NCBI GenBank assembly: GCA_003577005.1
Contig: QEUW01000430.1
Coordinates: forward strand, 1-6,256
Length of the DNA: 6,256 nucleotides
Reading direction: 5' to 3'
From: Chloroflexota bacterium
Lineage (GTDB): Bacteria; Chloroflexota; Anaerolineae; Caldilineales; Caldilineaceae
The notes under the pieces were generated by a model. It saw only the letters and a program-made list of their open reading frames with translations, searched no databases and was not told the origin of the DNA. Positions 1 to 6,256 of the stretch are shown here, piece by piece; position 1 is the stretch's first letter, and every line of letters starts with the position of its first letter. The position numbers and the translations under genes are program-made.

Positions 1-123
1 GCTGTACACCCGGTACCCGTTCTCCGCCCGCTGTGGTTTGGGGAGCAAGCCGATGTCCTCGTAGTAGCGGATGGTCTTGCTCGGCACGCCGGTTTGTGCA
101 CTCAATTCGCCAATTTGCAGCAT
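1..123 (-). CDS. MerR-family metal-type transcriptional regulator, N-terminal part (runs off left edge)
   Basis: The visible 41 residues form the N-terminal winged-helix DNA-binding region of a MerR-family activator. They open MLQIGELSAQTGVPSKTIRY and continue YEDIGLLPKPQR...NGYRVYS, which is the family signature (helix-turn-helix followed by RYYE and YR.Y). MerR proteins bind the over-long spacer of their target promoter as dimers and untwist it when they bind an effector. The start is supported by GAGG about 6 bases upstream of the ATG. The effector-binding C-terminus, with any metal-binding cysteines, lies outside the window, so the ligand cannot be read from the protein. The operator in its own promoter resembles CueR-type sites, which favours a copper or related soft-metal sensor (CueR, HmrR or ZntR group). 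The family call is secure; the effector is inferred. Confidence 0.9.
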   Translation of the reverse strand, partial: MLQIGELSAQTGVPSKTIRYYEDIGLLPKPQRAENGYRVYS

Positions 124-1495: not shown

Positions 1496-1798
1496 TCACC
1501 CTCTTACCAAGCATTCAATCCTGCCCGCGTGCGCGCATCTTACCACTGCTGCCCGTCGCACAGCAATAATCTCAGCCAGGATAGCCACGGCAATTTCACC
1601 CGGAGTCGGCCCGCCCAAATCCAGACCGATGGGCGCATACACACGGGCAAGCGTGTCCTCTGTCTGGCCATCCGTGCGCAGATGATCCAGGGCGATCTGG
1701 CACTGAGCCCGGCTGCCGATCATGCCAATATAGGGCGCCGGCGAATCGATCACCTGGCGTATGGCGGCCGCATCGAAGATATGGTCAGTTGTGATCAG
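1496..1798 (-). pseudogene. XdhC/CoxI-family C-terminal remnant (5'-truncated)
   Basis: About 100 codons match the C-terminal Rossmann half of XdhC/CoxI proteins, which help insert sulfurated molybdenum cofactor into xanthine dehydrogenase-type enzymes. The segment begins LITTDHIFDAAAIRQ, corresponding to the family's THDH..D..AL block, then shows PYIGMIGSR, LARVYAPIGLDLG, TPGEIAV and ILAEIIAVRR. Full XdhC proteins are about 250 to 380 residues. Here homology is cut by an in-frame TAG at 1801-1799, and no upstream coding sequence or ribosome site is seen. An internal ATG at 1753 would give 85 residues beginning inside the fold, which is unlikely to work. It is probably the residue of a deletion or rearrangement upstream of usp. 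No molybdenum hydroxylase genes are in the window. The family call is firm; non-functionality is inferred. Confidence 0.82.
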
Positions 1799-1832: not shown

Positions 1833-2153
1833 TTATTCGTGGTTCAGCACTTCCCGACTACCCGCTCCTTGTTCCATTCGGAACCGGTTGAGGATTTCGG
1901 CGCAGCACCTCGTTACGCATTCGGAGTTGGTCTGATAATACACATGCCGACCTTCTTGCCGCGCTGTGACAAGATTAGCCCGGCGCAAAACAGCCAGATG
2001 ATGTGAAACCGTCGGCTGATGGACTGGCAAAAGGGCTTCGAGTTCACTCACGCACATCTCGCGCTGGGCCAACAGCCTCAGGATTTCCTGACGGGTTTCG
2101 TCAGCCACCGCTTTGATGAAATCATCCAGATCGCAGCACGCTGGCGCGCTCAT
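1833..2153 (-). CDS. ArsR/SmtB-family transcriptional regulator with unusual cysteine layout
   Basis: This 106-residue winged-helix repressor has the usual ArsR/SmtB order: a dimerising N-terminal helix (VADETRQEILRLL, residues 17-28), the ELCVCDL-equivalent stretch EMCVSEL (33-38), the recognition helix HQPTVSHHLAVLRRANLV (45-62) and a beta-wing GRHVYYQT (68-75). In the metal-sensing motif only the first cysteine (Cys34) remains and the second is Ser. Extra cysteines sit at 6, 7, 79, 83 and 84, so the effector site, if there is one, probably differs from classical ArsR. The gene follows the mini-thioredoxin gene after 10 bases. The nearest good Shine-Dalgarno (AGGAGG) lies within the end of that gene, about 19 bases away, so coupling is likely. 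Family certain; ligand (metal, metalloid or thiol oxidant) unknown. Confidence 0.92.
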   Translation of the reverse strand: MSAPACCDLDDFIKAVADETRQEILRLLAQREMCVSELEALLPVHQPTVSHHLAVLRRANLVTARQEGRHVYYQTNSECVTRCCAEILNRFRMEQGAGSREVLNHE

Positions 2154-2163
2154 TCGCAGCCGT

Positions 2164-2433
2164 TCAAGCAGCCTCCTGGAAAGAGATCGTCAGCCATTTC
2201 AACACTTCGTCGACCGAGGGAATCCGCCCCGCACACACCAACTTCTCATTGATCACCAGCCCGGGTGTGAACAAAATCGGGTATTTGCAGATTTCCAGCG
2301 GATCCTGGACGTGCTCAAGTGTGACTTCCAGGTCAGGGTGATTCTGGGCGAGCTGTTCCAGGCTGAGGACAACGGCCTCTTCCACTGCGTAGCAGTTGAA
2401 GCAACCCGGTCCGAGAATCTTGATATTGAGCAT
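2164..2433 (-). CDS. Small thioredoxin-family protein with CXXC (redox-active disulfide protein 2 type)
   Basis: This 89-residue mini-thioredoxin opens MLNIKILGPGCFNC, with the redox pair Cys11 and Cys14. It keeps the loop TPGLVINEKLV containing the cis-proline (Pro57) and the ending GRIPSVDEVLKWL. That layout and length match the glutaredoxin-like thioredoxin_3 / redox-active disulfide protein 2 group, cytoplasmic dithiol proteins often found beside ArsR regulators and permeases in anaerobes. Two more cysteines, Cys49 and Cys67, are present. A longer reading frame begins upstream at 2499, but I chose the ATG at 2433. It sits 7 bases after GGAGG and 2 bases after the stop of the zinc-ribbon gene, and it gives the normal family N-terminus. 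A probable role is electron transfer to an oxidised protein or metalloid; the partner is not visible. Confidence 0.9.
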   Translation of the reverse strand: MLNIKILGPGCFNCYAVEEAVVLSLEQLAQNHPDLEVTLEHVQDPLEICKYPILFTPGLVINEKLVCAGRIPSVDEVLKWLTISFQEAA

Positions 2434-2435
2434 GA

Positions 2436-2699
2436 TCATTCCTCCAGCGGCACGTTGGGGTCGGGAAGCCGCACCCCATTTTTCTCGCAATCCATACACA
2501 GGTCAGTAGCGCGATTCGTCCAGTACATCTTGCCACAACCTGGGCAGGTCACTTGGCGCAACCCGCCCATTCTCGGCGGCGACTTGGGACGCAGTTCGGG
2601 CGGCAAGGCTGCAAATGGATCCTGCACGCAGGCGCAAACAGGCGGTTGATTATCCGGCCTGTCCTTTTCAGTAGCGGAGTCCTGCTTGAGATCTCCCAT
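2436..2699 (-). CDS. Small zinc-ribbon protein (hypothetical)
   Basis: I do not recognise a named family for this 87-residue protein. It has a polar, proline-rich N-terminal half (residues 1-45) with an isolated Cys22-X-Cys24. A compact zinc ribbon follows: CPGCGKMYW at 52-60 and LCMDC at 67-71, giving C52-X2-C55-X12-C68-X2-C71. This should hold one structural zinc (or possibly iron) atom. There is no signal peptide or membrane segment. The start was set at ATG 2699, with GGAG/AAGG just upstream; a GTG at 2705 is also possible. Its stop TGA is 2 bases from the thioredoxin start, and it follows the Fe-S gene by 15 bases, so it is co-transcribed and probably acts with those proteins. The function is unknown; nucleic-acid or protein binding is typical of such ribbons. 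Confidence 0.8.
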   Translation of the reverse strand: MGDLKQDSATEKDRPDNQPPVCACVQDPFAALPPELRPKSPPRMGGLRQVTCPGCGKMYWTNRATDLCMDCEKNGVRLPDPNVPLEE

Positions 2700-2714
2700 G
2701 ACCACCTTCTCCGG

Positions 2715-3254
2715 TTAGTTGATAGATGGCGCATCGATGATAATGGCCCGCAGTGCCGCCAGCTTTTCAGCGTTCTCTGGTTCAAACAGGGGCGGGCAAT
2801 CGTCAACGTGCATCTGGGATGCGACGAGCTTCAAGGCGAACGTGAAGCAGGTCGGCTGACCACACTTCTGACAGTTTGTCTTGGGCAGCAGGTTATAAAC
2901 AGCCAGCGGCGTGGGGCGCTGGTGCGTTTCATAATCGGGCGTAATCTCTTCTCGGCGTGCCCATGTCCGGTTCACCAGGGCGATCAGGCTGTGCAGCTCT
3001 TTCTCGGCCGCATCGCGATCTTCCACGTTGCTGGTCGCGATCTCGTAGGCGTGAAAGGCGATGTTGTGCCCACCTTTTTTCCAGGTGAGCGCCTGGGCAG
3101 CCGGGTTGTACACCGCGCCACGCAGTGTGGCATTGAGGTAGGGCAAAACTTCCGAGATGTCCACCCGCAAGCGCGCCCGCGCAGCAAAGCGCTCCGCTCC
3201 AGGCTCACAAGGGGGTGTATAAACCTCCACGTCATAGTCTTCGATCAGCATCAT
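2715..3254 (-). CDS. Small Fe-S protein with AcsC-type 4Fe-4S motif
   Basis: The last third of this 179-residue protein reads NLLPKTNCQKCGQPTCFTFA and continues ALKLVASQMHVDDCPPL. It supplies Cys128, 131, 136 and 153 in a C-X2-C-X4-C-X16-C pattern. This is the 4Fe-4S module found at the N-terminus of the corrinoid iron-sulfur protein large subunit (AcsC/CdhE) and in related electron carriers, where it passes single electrons at low potential. Here no corrinoid or TIM-barrel domain follows. Instead the module is preceded by about 120 residues of unrecognised alpha/beta sequence with one cysteine (Cys16). No signal peptide is seen. Two adjacent ATG codons (3254 and 3251) could start it, after AAAGGGG. 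It lies 36 bases after the CVCD-type arsR and 15 before the zinc-ribbon gene. I infer an electron donor or redox sensor; the substrate is unknown. Confidence 0.85.
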   Translation of the reverse strand: MMLIEDYDVEVYTPPCEPGAERFAARARLRVDISEVLPYLNATLRGAVYNPAAQALTWKKGGHNIAFHAYEIATSNVEDRDAAEKELHSLIALVNRTWARREEITPDYETHQRPTPLAVYNLLPKTNCQKCGQPTCFTFALKLVASQMHVDDCPPLFEPENAEKLAALRAIIIDAPSIN

Positions 3255-3290
3255 GACCCCTTTCTGGCAGCTCAGGCGACTGAAGGCACC

Positions 3291-3599
3291 TTATGTTCGT
3301 TCCTCGCGGGCTGAGGGCGGCGCGTCATTTGACGGCGCTCGCTCGCTTGCCAGCATCCGCAACACATCCGGCGAAGCCAACCGGTAGCGTATCATGATGC
3401 CCTCTCGCGTAGTGCTGACCAGCCCTGCCTCGCGCAAAATGGCCAACTGCTGCGAGGCATAAGGCTGCCGGCATCCCATCTTTTGAACGATGTCGCAGAC
3501 ACAGCAAGGCTCAACTGCCAGGATTTCCAAAATCCGCAGCCGCGCTGGATGTCCCAACGCACGAAACAGCCTTGCCCGGCTCTCATACCAGTCGGTCAT
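3291..3599 (-). CDS. arsR: ArsR-family repressor with CVCD metalloid-binding motif
   Basis: This 102-residue winged-helix repressor contains LFRALGHPARLRILEIL (residues 11-27) and then EPCCVCDIVQKM (30-41). The Cys33-Val-Cys35-Asp core equals the ELCVCDL motif that binds As(III)/Sb(III) in classical ArsR, with an extra Cys32 beside it and Cys43 nearby. The recognition helix is QPYASQQLAILREAGLV (45-61) and the wing is EGIMIRYRLA (66-75). The start ATG at 3599 has GAGGAGG 6 bases upstream; a longer open frame to 3773 was rejected because it adds sequence unlike the family. It precedes the Fe-S, zinc-ribbon and thioredoxin genes, so it probably controls them and itself. Arsenite or antimonite is the best-supported inducer, but Cd, Pb or another thiophilic species is possible. 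The family is certain; the symbol is used in the family sense. Confidence 0.92.
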   Translation of the reverse strand: MTDWYESRARLFRALGHPARLRILEILAVEPCCVCDIVQKMGCRQPYASQQLAILREAGLVSTTREGIMIRYRLASPDVLRMLASERAPSNDAPPSAREERT

Positions 3600-3621
3600 G
3601 GCTGACCTCCTCAACTGCCAC

Positions 3622-3650
3622 CTGACAGGCGAAGGTCTGCCGCCTGCCAG
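3622..3650. repeat. Hairpin-forming inverted repeat between the FmdB-like gene and arsR
   Basis: On the minus strand, CTGGCAGGCG and CGCCTGTCAG can pair as a 10-bp stem with one G-U pair around a 9-base loop. It starts just after the stop of the FmdB-like gene and ends about 10 bases before the arsR ribosome site. No U-tract follows, so it is not a standard intrinsic terminator. It could be an mRNA-processing or stability element or an operator half; its function is inferred only from position. Confidence 0.45.
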
Positions 3651-3652
3651 CC

Positions 3653-3853
3653 CTATCGGGATGAGCAACAACCAACCCTGGGCGCAGAATCGGGTGAGCG
3701 CGCCATCTTGGCTACTGCCCTGAATACATGCCGAGTCTGCACGCCACCACACTTCGGGCAGCGCGGCTGCCACCCCGACTCCTTCTTGCCGATTGACACA
3801 AAGATGTCAAACTCCGCCCCGCATTCCTCGCACACATAGGCATAGATAGGCAT
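3653..3853 (-). CDS. FmdB-family zinc-ribbon protein
   Basis: This 66-residue protein has the FmdB-type N-terminus MPIYAYVCEECGAEFDIFVS and a second knuckle RCPKCGG. Cys8, 11, 32 and 35 form a zinc ribbon. The family is named for a putative regulator of formamidase/formylmethanofuran dehydrogenase genes in Methylophilus and archaea, but no biochemical role is established for most members. The C-terminus ends GCCSSR, a Cys-Cys tail of the kind seen in some homologues. The ATG is preceded by AGGAGG with ideal spacing, so expression should be good. It is the first gene of the second minus-strand group, 53 bases before arsR, and has a 179-base gap behind it where a promoter would be expected. Confidence 0.88.
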   Translation of the reverse strand: MPIYAYVCEECGAEFDIFVSIGKKESGWQPRCPKCGGVQTRHVFRAVAKMARSPDSAPRVGCCSSR

Positions 3854-3935
3854 GAACTCCTCCTGACATTGACTGGAACACCGCCTCCAGACCCATCAGG
3901 GGCCAACCACAACTCCACGCCCACCGAATCTTGAG

Positions 3936-3948
3936 CAGGGTGACCCTG
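3936..3948. promoter_or_regulatory. 13-bp perfect palindrome in the 179-base gap upstream of the FmdB-like gene (candidate operator)
   Basis: CAGGGT and ACCCTG flank a single central base in the gap between osmC and the FmdB-like gene (3854-4032). It is about 80 bases upstream of the start codon. A repressor such as the downstream ArsR could bind here, but the sequence does not resemble a known ArsR consensus and no convincing -35/-10 pair is seen beside it. Nothing else recognisable lies in this gap. The palindrome is real; an operator role is a guess. Confidence 0.35.
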
Positions 3949-4032
3949 TCATCCCGTTGAAGGCAACACGGGCTGCCCCATAGATATTCCGCTCATGTGG
4001 GCCTCTATGCCGGACACTGTCTGCAGCCCCTT

Positions 4033-4485
4033 TCAAGGGACGATCTCAATCGTTGGCTCGATAACGATCTCGGACTTGACCGAATTCGCCACCAGGCTGT
4101 ACTTCTGGGCAGACTGCAGCGCACGGCGTGTGCGTACTGCGACGACCTCCGCGGCCTCGGCACCAGCGCTGATGCGGATGACCGGCCACAAGCGCAGGTG
4201 TGTGAAGATTTCTGTCCGGTCCAGTTCGATCAGCTTGGTTCCCTCGGCTCGACACTCATAGGACTGCAGGTTCAGCTTGAACCGCTCGGCAGCCCAGATG
4301 AACATCATCATGATGCAGGTATTGGCCGCCGCAACGAACGCATCTTCGGGGGTCAGCACGCCGGGGTGACCCTGGGCATCCGGCGGCGCGGAAAAGTCCA
4401 TCTCCGGGCCGTTGCCCATCACAATATGACCCCAGTGTTCGCCTCGCCACGACACAGTGGTGTGATACGTTGCCGTACGGCTCAT
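4033..4485 (-). CDS. OsmC/Ohr-family protein lacking the usual resolving cysteine
   Basis: This 150-residue protein follows the OsmC fold pattern: N-terminal beta-strands ending DFSAPPDAQG, the segment LTPEDAFVAAANTCIMMMF with Cys57 at the reactive-cysteine position, and a long helix with LNLQSYECRAEG. The second half ends RRALQSAQKYSLVANSVKSEI. OsmC and Ohr are cytoplasmic thiol peroxidases for organic or fatty-acid hydroperoxides that use two cysteines. The second normally sits in a CPVS-like motif; here that position reads KYSLVANS, so the canonical resolving cysteine is absent. Cys78 is the only other cysteine. It could still be a one-cysteine peroxidase or persulfide-handling protein, or an OsmC-like protein with another role. 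Its start overlaps the stop of the preceding DGC gene by 4 bases (ATGA), with AGGAG upstream, and it ends the lpd-H-protein-DGC operon. Confidence 0.88.
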   Translation of the reverse strand: MSRTATYHTTVSWRGEHWGHIVMGNGPEMDFSAPPDAQGHPGVLTPEDAFVAAANTCIMMMFIWAAERFKLNLQSYECRAEGTKLIELDRTEIFTHLRLWPVIRISAGAEAAEVVAVRTRRALQSAQKYSLVANSVKSEIVIEPTIEIVP

Positions 4486-5216
4486 GCGGCTGTCTCCTGG
4501 TGGCTGCAGAATGCCTCATACTCGCGCACCAGTGCCGCCGCGTAGGCTTCCTCGGCCTCGGTGGGCACCTCGTTGTAAACCTTGACCACGTCCAACAGTT
4601 CCCTGGCCAGGCTATCTCCCGGCACTTTACCCGCCGTGCGGAATTGCTCGAAGATCAGCGGCAAAGCCACCAGAGCGACGGTCTGGCCGTTGACTGCGAT
4701 CTTCTGGATCGGAATACCCGATCCACACGAACAGGTCGCCTGCGGAGCTTCTTGCGACGCAGCCAGGGGTATGGTTTCGGCGAAGGTTCCGGTGCGGCGA
4801 CTCCATCGCTTGCCGAGCAGTTCATCAACCAGGCTCGCAACCTGGTTCGCCGTCAGATCCACCGCCTGCAGGCCACTCTCGTTCAAACGGCGCGTGCCTT
4901 CGGGCTGGCGCAGCCCATGCTCCGCGACCAGATCGCTCACAACCACGCTCGCGGCTGGCTTGCCCGAAAACTGCTCGGTCGCGCGCGCGGCACAGCGCTT
5001 GTCACAACCATCCACGGCAATCGTGGGATAGAAACGCGCAAACGCCCGGTCGCCTTCTCCACCGGCCAGGAAGAGCGGCAAACAGATGGTCACCGTATCG
5101 CCGGGGCGTAGTTGCTCCAGCACCCTCAGTGCCGCCAGCCGGGTCACCGTCCCCACGGCAAGCTCTTCACCTGAACAGGCGACAATTCCCACTTTTTTCT
5201 GCGGCAGATCAGGCAT
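4482..5216 (-). CDS. DGC-domain putative zinc-binding protein with an extra C-terminal domain
   Basis: Residues 8 to about 135 form a DGC domain: VACSGEELAVGTVTRLAA with Cys14, CLPLFLAG with Cys45, and AVDGCDKRCAA with Cys71 and Cys75. The domain is named for the conserved Asp-Gly-Cys and is annotated as putative zinc-binding; its activity is not established. A linker with Cys162-Ser-Cys164 follows. Then comes a C-terminal domain of about 75 residues, IQKIAVNGQTVALVALPLIF and onward to VKVYNEVP...YAAALVREYEAF. From memory it resembles a small stand-alone protein type common in anaerobes, but I cannot name it. The gene overlaps the preceding DGC gene by 8 bases and the osmC gene by 4, implying fixed stoichiometry. 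It is the divergent, fused partner of the 142-residue paralogue. Metal or persulfide binding by the cysteines is inferred. Confidence 0.87.
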   Translation of the reverse strand: MPDLPQKKVGIVACSGEELAVGTVTRLAALRVLEQLRPGDTVTICLPLFLAGGEGDRAFARFYPTIAVDGCDKRCAARATEQFSGKPAASVVVSDLVAEHGLRQPEGTRRLNESGLQAVDLTANQVASLVDELLGKRWSRRTGTFAETIPLAASQEAPQATCSCGSGIPIQKIAVNGQTVALVALPLIFEQFRTAGKVPGDSLARELLDVVKVYNEVPTEAEEAYAAALVREYEAFCSHQETAA

Positions 5217-5637
5217 GGCTACGTTCCTCGTCCTCGGATATCAGGTTATCGATTACGCCGGCTATCTCTTCGGCAATGGTGTGGGCCAGTCGCTGCCCGC
5301 CCTCGTTCAACTGAGCGATACCTTGCGGTTTGAACTCCCGATAGCGCCGGTACACATCGAGTACGGCGAAATCCTGGGCAACAGTTCCCCCGCTCTCCCG
5401 CACCATTTTGGTAGCACAGGCCAGCTTGCACCCGTCAATGGTCACGACCGGGCGCGCAGCGATTGCCGCACGGGCTTCATCATCGCCCAACACCAACAGA
5501 GACAACGCCACCAATTGAGTGGCCTCCGGTCTGCTGTCTTCGGTCACCTCATAGGCAGCCTCTCGGCTGACCGTGCCGTATGACTTGCCGATGCCGCTGC
5601 ACGGCACGATGATCACTTTGCGTTCCTGGTCGTTCAT
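5209..5637 (-). CDS. DGC-domain putative zinc-binding protein (single domain)
   Basis: This 142-residue protein is a stand-alone DGC domain. It shows VPCSGIGKSYGTVSREAAYE (Cys13), then VVTIDGCKLACATKMV (Cys70 and Cys74), and ends in an acidic helix. It shares the CSG...DGC...C framework with the next gene but lacks a counterpart of that protein's Cys45 (it reads LSLLVL) and the C-terminal domain. DGC proteins have no established reaction; the three cysteines could bind zinc or carry sulfur. Its ATG overlaps the stop of the lipoyl-protein gene by 4 bases (ATGA), and its own stop lies inside the start of the second DGC gene, so all three are translationally coupled. No membrane or signal segment is seen. 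The family is recognised; the role as partner of the lipoyl carrier is inferred from the operon. Confidence 0.87.
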   Translation of the reverse strand: MNDQERKVIIVPCSGIGKSYGTVSREAAYEVTEDSRPEATQLVALSLLVLGDDEARAAIAARPVVTIDGCKLACATKMVRESGGTVAQDFAVLDVYRRYREFKPQGIAQLNEGGQRLAHTIAEEIAGVIDNLISEDEERSHA

Positions 5638-6083
5638 AGCTTCCTGGCTTCCTCTTCGGCTTGCCCCTTCATCAGCTCGAAATAGGCCTGGGGATCAAGC
5701 AGCCTGGCGCGGTCCTTCGGCCAATCGCTGGCTTCAATCACGACCAGCCACCCCTCACCATACGGATCCTGGTTGATGACTTCAGGCGATAGTTCCATTG
5801 CCGGATTGACTTCTACCACAGTGCCGCTCACGGGTGAGGTCAGGCTCACATTGACCTTAATCGTCTCGATCACGGCGACTTCGTCTCCGGCTTCCAGTGT
5901 CGTTCCTTCCGGTTTGACTTCGGCAAACGCAATATCCCCGCTGCGCTGCTGCAAGAAATCGGTCATCCCGATCCGAATGCGGTTACCTTCGGCCAGCGCC
6001 CAGATGCCTTCATCGTTGTAGTAGCGATCGGTAGCCACCTTGAAGGTAAACTTGTCAACGGTTGTTTCCAGGTATTCCGGCAT
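5634..6083 (-). CDS. Glycine-cleavage H-protein-like lipoyl carrier
   Basis: This 149-residue protein has the GcvH/biotinyl-lipoyl fold: IWALAEGNRIRIGMTDFLQQ near residues 27-46, SGDIAFAEVKPEGTTLEAGD, then VIETIKVNVSLTSPVSGTVV with the lipoyl lysine at Lys76. The closing block is INQDPYGEGWLVVIEASDW. H-proteins carry aminomethyl or electrons on lipoamide between enzymes. True GcvH is about 125-130 residues and usually reads ESVKA around the lysine; here it is ETIKVN, with a C-terminal extension of about 25 residues. No gcvT or gcvP lies nearby, only an lpd 9 bases upstream and DGC and osmC genes downstream. This favours an alternative lipoyl carrier, comparable in principle to the LbpA proteins of sulfur-oxidising sHdr systems. 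TAGGAGG gives a strong ribosome site. The fold and lipoylation site are firm; the pathway is inferred. Confidence 0.9.
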   Translation of the reverse strand: MPEYLETTVDKFTFKVATDRYYNDEGIWALAEGNRIRIGMTDFLQQRSGDIAFAEVKPEGTTLEAGDEVAVIETIKVNVSLTSPVSGTVVEVNPAMELSPEVINQDPYGEGWLVVIEASDWPKDRARLLDPQAYFELMKGQAEEEARKL

Positions 6084-6092
6084 GTCGTCCTC

Positions 6093-6256
6093 CTAACGAG
6101 CATGAAAATGCAGCGCGGCATCACGGAAGCCGAGCGCCGCTTCGAGCATGGCTTCCGGCAACGTCGGATGGGCATGCGTCGTCCAGGCCAGGTCGTCAGC
6201 CGTTGCGCCCGTCTGCACGGCCAAAGCACCTTCCGCAATCAGGTCGGTCACATGGG
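6093..6256 (-). CDS. lpd: Dihydrolipoamide dehydrogenase, C-terminal end (runs off right edge)
   Basis: The last 53 residues of a dihydrolipoamide dehydrogenase (E3) are visible. They include HVTDLIAEGALAVQTGATAD and then WTTHAHPTLPEAMLEAALG. The HAHPTLPE segment holds the His-Glu pair (H-P-x-x-x-E) that acts as proton acceptor at the disulfide active site in the dimer interface. E3 is an FAD flavoenzyme that reoxidises dihydrolipoamide with NAD+, or reduces lipoamide with NADH. The protein ends AALHFHAR. Its TAG stop is 9 bases before the ATG of the H-protein-like gene, and the ribosome site of that gene touches the stop, so the two are one operon. The FAD domain and the CXXXXC disulfide lie beyond the window. 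Confidence 0.92.
   Translation of the reverse strand, partial: HVTDLIAEGALAVQTGATADDLAWTTHAHPTLPEAMLEAALGFRDAALHFHAR

Follow-up and report, generated by a model that had tools for sequence, protein, structure and literature searches.

What might a lipoyl carrier resembling the H-protein of glycine cleavage do in an operon shared with two DGC proteins and an OsmC-like protein? The question is raised by a 6,256-nt stretch of DNA from a Chloroflexota bacterium (contig QEUW01000430.1; the whole stretch is hereafter called the window, and all positions refer to it), on the minus strand of which five genes are read in the order lpd (dihydrolipoyl dehydrogenase), H-like carrier, DGC-A, DGC-B, and OsmC. 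A gap of 9 bases separates lpd from the carrier gene, and the genes that follow overlap by 4, 8, and 4 bases. This is the coupled five-gene operon that a first-pass annotation of the DNA had described, and the Pfam matches of its products agree with that description, as they do with the lipoyl carrier with Lys76 noted there (Table 1). Here, we propose, at a probability of roughly one half, that these genes form a dedicated lipoyl-carrier module that handles a thiophilic metal or metalloid, with As(III) or a related arsenical as the likeliest substrate. The observations behind this proposal are the linkage of the genes, the separation of the carrier from the other H-proteins compared, the conservation of its lysine and of cysteines in its partners, and the arsenic-type neighbors of the module.

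The module is conserved in bacteria and archaea. When genome contigs were scanned with DGC-B, 23 loci were recovered, in genomes titled as Chloroflexi/Anaerolineae, Aminicenantes/Acidobacteria, Bathyarchaeota, and clostridia and relatives. A DGC-B profile matched in 49 of 396 genomes of the Anaerolineae class (E 1e-15), 17 of 201 of the Bathyarchaeal class (E 1e-20), 8 of 198 of the phylum of genome G010, and 6 of 391 of the clostridial class to which G018 belongs, with at most 10 candidates per genome scored in the Anaerolineae and clostridial scans. The 91 related loci considered below come, by our own count, from 87 genomes (G009, G376, G471, and G1193 contribute two loci each) and comprise 50 from Chloroflexota, 21 Bathyarchaeal loci, 10 from Bacillota, and 9 from Acidobacteria/Aminicenantes, with L022, titled Chloroflexi, counted apart. 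Five of the 49 Anaerolineae genomes (G168, G178, G186, G274, and G277), with matches no farther than about 600 bases from a contig start, lie outside these wider regions. It should be noted that gene labels in the loci derive from models built on one or a few seeds with cut-offs chosen by the authors, and that ArsC stands for a label of the low-molecular-weight (LMW) phosphatase type.

A carrier together with at least two DGC domains was found in 83 of the 91 loci, across the four groups. The linkage of carrier, DGC, and DGC, often with OsmC and Lpd, thus extends well beyond the window, and the DGC proteins, which the first-pass annotation had singled out as the new component, are the constant companions of the carrier. 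Other labels were assigned to OsmC in 68 loci, TRX3 thioredoxin in 56, ferredoxin in 25, radical SAM in 23, HdrA-N-like proteins in 22, TauE-type exporters in 18, CcdA in 15, Lpd in 14, a CDF transporter in 8, and LplA in 4. The genes are packed more tightly than by chance, because, of the 247 pairs of adjacent module genes in the window and the 91 loci, 160 overlap and a further 65 are separated by 0-30 bases (gene starts were assigned by rule). All 10 Bacillota loci encode an HdrA-N-like protein, a ferredoxin, and a third DGC domain fused to the carrier, and none of them has an OsmC label; HdrA-N-like proteins are also encoded in 8 of the 21 Bathyarchaeal loci and in 3 of the 50 from Chloroflexota. 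The eight loci without a carrier label at the chosen cut-off are L011, L136 (where a partial carrier is present), L173, and five Bathyarchaeal DGC-OsmC loci (L182, L183, L184, L186, and L188). These five hold no arsenic-type gene or ArsR other than an ArsC-type hit in L188, which additionally holds a gcvP-like gene.

The carrier appears, by the tests run, to be neither a plain GcvH nor an LbpA. Its nearest solved relative is a GcvH (1onl, 4.9e-39), and it lies 0.7 bits over the cut-off of the GcvH subfamily model NF002270 (117.7 vs. 117); however, it scores 102.1 bits against the gcvH equivalog TIGR00527 and does not reach the cut-off of 115.85. In an unrooted tree built from 58 module carriers together with 22 further H-proteins of the same set of genomes, the module carriers occupy one side of a branch (support 99/92, and 97% of 200 bootstrap trees). 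They still do so (98/97) in a second tree of 49 carriers to which two H-like proteins with two cysteines were added, the comparison group no longer forming one side of a branch once these had joined. Near-identical carriers were thinned for both trees (to 58, then to 49), L185 and L153 were left out of the smaller one for their long branches, and two H-like proteins of another type (L051 and L052) are among the 22 comparison rows, from which eight loci were left out as copies of the module. By this check, which had been set in advance, the module carriers stand apart from the other H-proteins in the comparison; because the trees are unrooted, they show separation and do not tell which side is derived. 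The lipoyl lysine is kept in 84 of 84 module carriers, that of the window included, and the HEW motif is found in 0 of 84. Cysteines are absent from 45 of these carriers, whereas 26 have one and 13 have two.

The surroundings of the carrier likewise point outside glycine cleavage, as the first-pass annotation had proposed. Seeds for gcvT matched in 0 of the 91 module loci and seeds for gcvP in two, namely L188 (2.6e-60), which has no carrier label, and L179, where the matches are weak (4.1e-10 and 1.2e-8) and fall between 17.9 and 19.9 kb in a locus 19.9 kb long, at least about 5 kb away from the module. For the window itself, the earlier statement that glycine-cleavage genes are missing holds for the ten proteins covered by our Pfam and NCBIfam scan (2164..6256), none of which matched GCV_T or GDC-P; genes left of 2164 were outside the scan. 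In 14 of 23 genomes, another H-protein is encoded beside GDC-P at a separate place. Seven module genomes (G005, G014, G018, G020, G904, G1071, and G1193) have no GDC-P over the cut-off, for which incomplete assembly may be the cause in some. We strongly infer that the carrier is lipoylated, because the lysine is invariant and because two of these genomes, the clostridial G018 (C. tepidiprofundi) and G904, encode it as their sole full-length H-protein, yielded no E2 match, and have a lipoate ligase gene close to the module; GDC-P matches in both genomes occur only below the cut-off.

Conservation extends to the partners of the carrier. To our knowledge, the DGC family has no established function, and both window members clear the PF08859 gathering score (Table 1). 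Among 201 DGC domains in module loci, Cys71 and Cys75 (numbering of the window DGC-B) are present in 201, Cys14 is a cysteine in 197 with gaps in the other 4, and Cys45 is a cysteine in 150. A predicted model of DGC-B (predicted local distance difference test, pLDDT, 83.5; predicted template modeling score, pTM, 0.57) has an alpha/beta fold in which Cys14, Cys45, and Cys71 sit at or just past the ends of strands E9-13, E41-45, and E65-69 and Cys75 starts the next helix; the cysteines would thereby converge in space. No solved relative of the DGC proteins was found by sequence search. Residues 135-244 of DGC-B (4814..4482, minus strand) have no Pfam match and carry a CSCGSG motif; this C-terminal part is present in the consensus of 48 relatives.

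For the OsmC-like protein, the OsmC fold is confirmed by matches to 2onf (E 1.1e-12) and 2d7v (3.1e-12). The position occupied by a cysteine in these two structures is serine in 69 of 69 module OsmC proteins (Ser130 in the window), whereas Cys57 is present in 69 of 69 and an extra cysteine, Cys78, in 68 of 69. The usual two-Cys peroxidase mechanism is unlikely because the second cysteine is replaced in every one of them, and peroxide handling by that route, one of the functions first suggested for the operon, is accordingly less supported. Two-Cys peroxide defense was therefore set aside as an explanation, although a one-Cys mechanism could still operate. The protein shares its fold with the Ohr/OsmC peroxidases while differing in these two positions, and the title of a solved Ohr (6ebg) names an interaction with dihydrolipoamide, a precedent for contact with a lipoyl group.

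The neighbors of the module suggest what it may handle. ArsR was labeled in 70 of the 91 loci, ACR3 in 33, an ArsC-type protein in 21, ArsP in 12, ArsD in 12, ArsA in 11, and ArsM in 6, and an arsenic-type gene other than ArsR is found in 52 loci (50 when ArsP is not counted) and in 35 of the 50 loci of at least 15 kb. As controls, 39 regions were taken from module-holding genomes (19 around other H-proteins and 20 arbitrary), amounting to 707 kb compared with 1356 kb of module loci; L217, which is the module locus of G015, was removed from them. An arsenic-type gene or ArsR was found in 0 of the 39 (Fisher p 2e-11, a value that ignores kinship of the loci). Grouped by lineage, ACR3, ArsM, ArsA, ArsD, or ArsC is encoded in 9 of 9 loci from Acidobacteria/Aminicenantes, 13 of the 21 Bathyarchaeal ones, 7 of the 10 from Bacillota, and 20 of the 50 from Chloroflexota. 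Further, 26 of the 33 ACR3 proteins match TIGR00832 at E 1e-84 or better, which is about its cut-off, and a CxC motif occurs within the first 50 residues of 81 of 95 ArsR-type stretches. Arsenic-type genes adjoin the module far more often than they do the controls, and the module is not dependent on ACR3. Given these neighbors, thiol-bound metal fits best among the peroxides, persulfides, and thiol-bound metal that the first-pass annotation had offered as substrates.

Several points weigh against a role in arsenic handling. At the level of whole Anaerolineae genomes, ACR3 (E 1e-40 or better) is not commoner where the module is present (15 of 49 genomes) than where it is not (124 of 347), and even among Chloroflexota loci of at least 15 kb, ACR3, ArsM, ArsA, ArsD, or ArsC is encoded in 13 of 25. 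The scanned proteins of the window include no arsenic pump, reductase, or methylase, and only ArsR and an ArsE-like protein represent arsenic genes there. Of the 33 ACR3 proteins, seven do not reach E 1e-84; the lowest-scoring ones are mostly from Chloroflexota (L004, L140, L144, L159, L166, and L170, with 164-284 bits against our own model), and some may be fragments or proteins other than arsenite pumps. The models for arsenic genes were built from neighbors of the module, which could bias detection toward module loci over controls. The CxC sensor of ArsR proteins is found in Cd/Pb sensors too, and resistance genes move in islands, so neighbors need not belong to one pathway. Finally, fold comparison of the DGC model returned matches at background level, with no functional match and no known reductase fold.

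Dihydrolipoyl groups bind arsenite tightly, and the metalloid-handling module that we favor would exploit this property. In this scheme, lipoylation of the carrier, its electron donors, metalloid binding, the order of transfer, and the choice of arsenic over another soft metal are all presumed, and it could work as follows. An ArsR-type repressor would turn the operon on, lipoate would be attached to Lys76 of the H-like protein, and Lpd, using NADH, would maintain the lipoyl arm in its dithiol form, a task that might fall to the HdrA-N-like protein and its ferredoxin in Bacillota and some Bathyarchaeal loci. The dithiol arm would capture the metalloid as a cyclic dithiolate and pass it to the DGC proteins, where the recipients would be the conserved cysteines placed by the model at the ends of neighboring strands. 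The OsmC-like protein would act as a thiol binder or transfer partner and not as a two-Cys peroxidase, and in a final step the metalloid would be effluxed or methylated. Somewhat short of even odds is what we would give to the fuller picture, in which a swinging dithiol arm, driven by NADH or ferredoxin, ferries its cargo, As(III) or else a thioarsenical or organoarsenical, between DGC proteins in both bacteria and archaea and so represents a further use of lipoate.

The same components could be arranged differently. If electrons from NADH or ferredoxin traveled via the lipoyl arm to reduce an oxidized metalloid species (arsenate, thioarsenate, or an organoarsenical) at the DGC or OsmC proteins, the module would be a lipoyl-dependent reductase. 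Its two electron inputs (Lpd in 14 loci, and HdrA-N-like proteins in 22 with ferredoxin in 25), which a passive chaperone would hardly need, speak for such an activity, as do the frequent redox neighbors TRX3 and CcdA; we nevertheless consider it rather unlikely, since fold comparison linked DGC to no known reductase, and the separate ArsC-type gene in 21 of the 91 loci makes arsenate a less likely substrate. The arsenic genes could also be bystanders, merely co-located in resistance islands with a general module for soft-metal or thiol stress (Cd, Hg, Pb, Sb, Cu). This would be in keeping with the lack of ACR3 enrichment in Anaerolineae genomes, the CDF transporters beside 8 modules, and a window in which ArsR regulators occur with no pump, reductase, or methylase among the scanned proteins. 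Such an arrangement is unlikely in view of the presence of ACR3, ArsM, ArsA, ArsD, or ArsC in 50 of 91 module loci compared with 0 of 39 controls, spread over all four groups and reaching 9 of 9 in Acidobacteria/Aminicenantes and 13 of 21 in Bathyarchaeal loci.

Two further readings start from the carrier instead of its neighbors. LbpA of the sHdr system is likewise a GcvH-like carrier encoded in a dedicated operon outside glycine cleavage and, with the exception of some archaeal proteins, has two conserved cysteines, near the N- and C-terminus (PMC6067878); a lipoate ligase and an HdrA-like piece are further features that some module loci have in common with it. A relay for persulfide or sulfane sulfur of the kind that LbpA serves in sulfur oxidation could draw on the common carrier fold, on the HdrA-N-like proteins and ferredoxins of some loci, on the TauE-type exporters in 18, and on the existence of ArsR-type repressors that sense sulfane sulfur (PMC12423496). 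Yet the window carrier and 45 of 84 module carriers are free of cysteine, their partners are DGC and OsmC proteins with arsenic-type genes nearby, and TusA and DsrE seeds, taken from the L241 region of one genome, matched in 0 of 91 module loci while recovering L241 and L242; TusA matches were obtained in 16 of 23 genomes, none of them within the module loci. Membership in sHdr was rejected on the carrier cysteines, and the sulfur-oxidation role that had been entertained for the window is less supported; we regard a sulfur relay as quite improbable. In two module genomes, H-like proteins with two cysteines are encoded elsewhere beside TusA and DsrE genes and fall outside the module's side of the tree. 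Still less credible, to the point of being hardly tenable, is an ordinary GcvH engaged in glycine cleavage or lipoate delivery. The module carrier does share the GcvH fold family (PF01597) and lipoyl lysine and just passes NF002270; it differs in its position in the trees, in falling under the TIGR00527 cut-off, in lacking the HEW motif, in having no gcvT beside it, and in its operon partners, and it occurs in genomes without GDC-P over the cut-off, some of which may be incompletely assembled. On the tree separation and this context, membership in glycine cleavage was rejected.

The two-cysteine H-like proteins just mentioned (L241, 7468-7914; L242, 3675-4121) have a cysteine near each end and adjoin [NiFe]-hydrogenase-type genes. 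DsrE-like and TusA genes are present in both regions and a lipoate-ligase-like gene in L241, these names resting mostly on reading of the sequences, and a hydrogenase-linked LbpA-like system is possible.

Compared with known ars operons, the module has ArsR, ACR3, ArsA, ArsD, ArsC, and ArsM among its neighbors and, in the window, an ArsR with a CxC sensor motif (CCVCD), and it differs by its lipoyl carrier and DGC proteins. Organometal-type genes are likewise a feature of the Sec-assisted organometallic (SAO) and Tso selenoprotein loci of Haft and co-workers (PMC13188914). The ArsP-type permease of L001 matches SaoE, and the CcdA of L004 matches TsoB, all such matches being under the curated cut-offs. 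On the GcvH_rel_desulf model, for which the cut-off is 150, the carrier of the window reaches 59.6.

In the open-access literature, which leaves most subscription-journal papers outside, no description of a module combining a lipoyl carrier with DGC proteins was found, and no NCBIfam model (release of June 2026) was matched by either window DGC protein. Where names are given among the matches listed, the proteins of the module go by ‘glycine cleavage system H protein’ or ‘uncharacterized metal-binding protein’, and a metalloid-handling system would, if the proposal is true, be revealed behind these names. Lipoic acid would then have a new physiological role beyond the 2-oxoacid dehydrogenase and glycine cleavage enzymes and sHdr sulfur oxidation, the bond between arsenite and lipoyl groups that causes toxicity to lipoyl enzymes would be turned to detoxification, and the DGC family would gain a first, testable function. 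Only if the proposed function holds would the gene set be categorically new relative to the systems compared, as judged from the open-access literature.

Beyond the five genes, the linked set continues to the left of OsmC (3853..1833) with genes for an FmdB-type protein, an ArsR, an FeS protein, a CxxC protein, a thioredoxin/ArsE, and a second ArsR (Table 1). The related locus L001 has the order FmdB, ArsR, FeS, CxxC, and thioredoxin after its OsmC, and the second ArsR is missing there. At the other end of the operon, the top NCBIfam match of the lpd piece, lipoamide_DH (4.9e-10), is far under its cut-off because only 53 amino acids of the protein are present; relatives L003 and L005 encode a full-length LPD immediately upstream of the H gene.

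Table 1. Genes of the window (QEUW01000430.1, 6,256 nt) with their positions and supporting matches.
Feature	Position	Strand	Evidence and remarks
lpd (dihydrolipoyl dehydrogenase), C-terminal dimerization part	6093..6256	-	Pyr_redox_dim 33 bits, cut-off 25.3; cut by the window end
H-protein-like lipoyl carrier, Lys76 (codon 5858..5856), no cysteine	5634..6083	-	GCV_H 111.7 bits
DGC-A, Cys triad (CSG...DGC...C)	5209..5637	-	PF08859 58.5 bits, gathering score 27; no NCBIfam family
DGC-B, Cys14/45/71/75 and C-terminal part of about 100 amino acids	4482..5216	-	PF08859 61.7 bits, gathering score 27; no NCBIfam family
OsmC-like protein, Cys57 and Cys78, Ser130	4033..4485	-	PF02566 39.9 bits
FmdB-type zinc ribbon	3653..3853	-	PF09723 50.1 bits; counterpart at equal position in L001
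ArsR/SmtB regulator, CVC (CCVCD) in sensor helix region	3291..3602	-	HTH_5 53.4 bits; HTH_metalloreg 89.3 bits
FeS-cluster domain protein (PF04060)	2715..3254	-	46.9 bits; FeS label in 19/91 module loci
Small Cys-rich (CxxC) protein	2436..2705	-	Neither Pfam nor NCBIfam match; relative in L001
Thioredoxin_3, MTH895/ArsE family	2164..2433	-	PF13192 69.4 bits; TIGR00412 69.1 bits, cut-off 62
Second ArsR-type regulator, CVS in sensor region and CVTRCC beyond it	1833..2153	-	Open reading frame; clusters with ArsR of related loci

A radical SAM/SPASM protein recurs near the module (23 of 91 loci); the copy in L009 (11174-12370) is nearest to a model for a maturase of a tungsten-cofactor oxidoreductase, under its cut-off (258.7 vs. 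380). Within the window, an 85-amino-acid piece at 1753..1496 on the minus strand is related to a 249-amino-acid XdhC/CoxI protein of L001 (8424-9173) and is seemingly incomplete. At the left edge, a gene starts within 1..123 on the minus strand and runs off the window; judged by eye, we take its product to resemble a MerR-type regulator.

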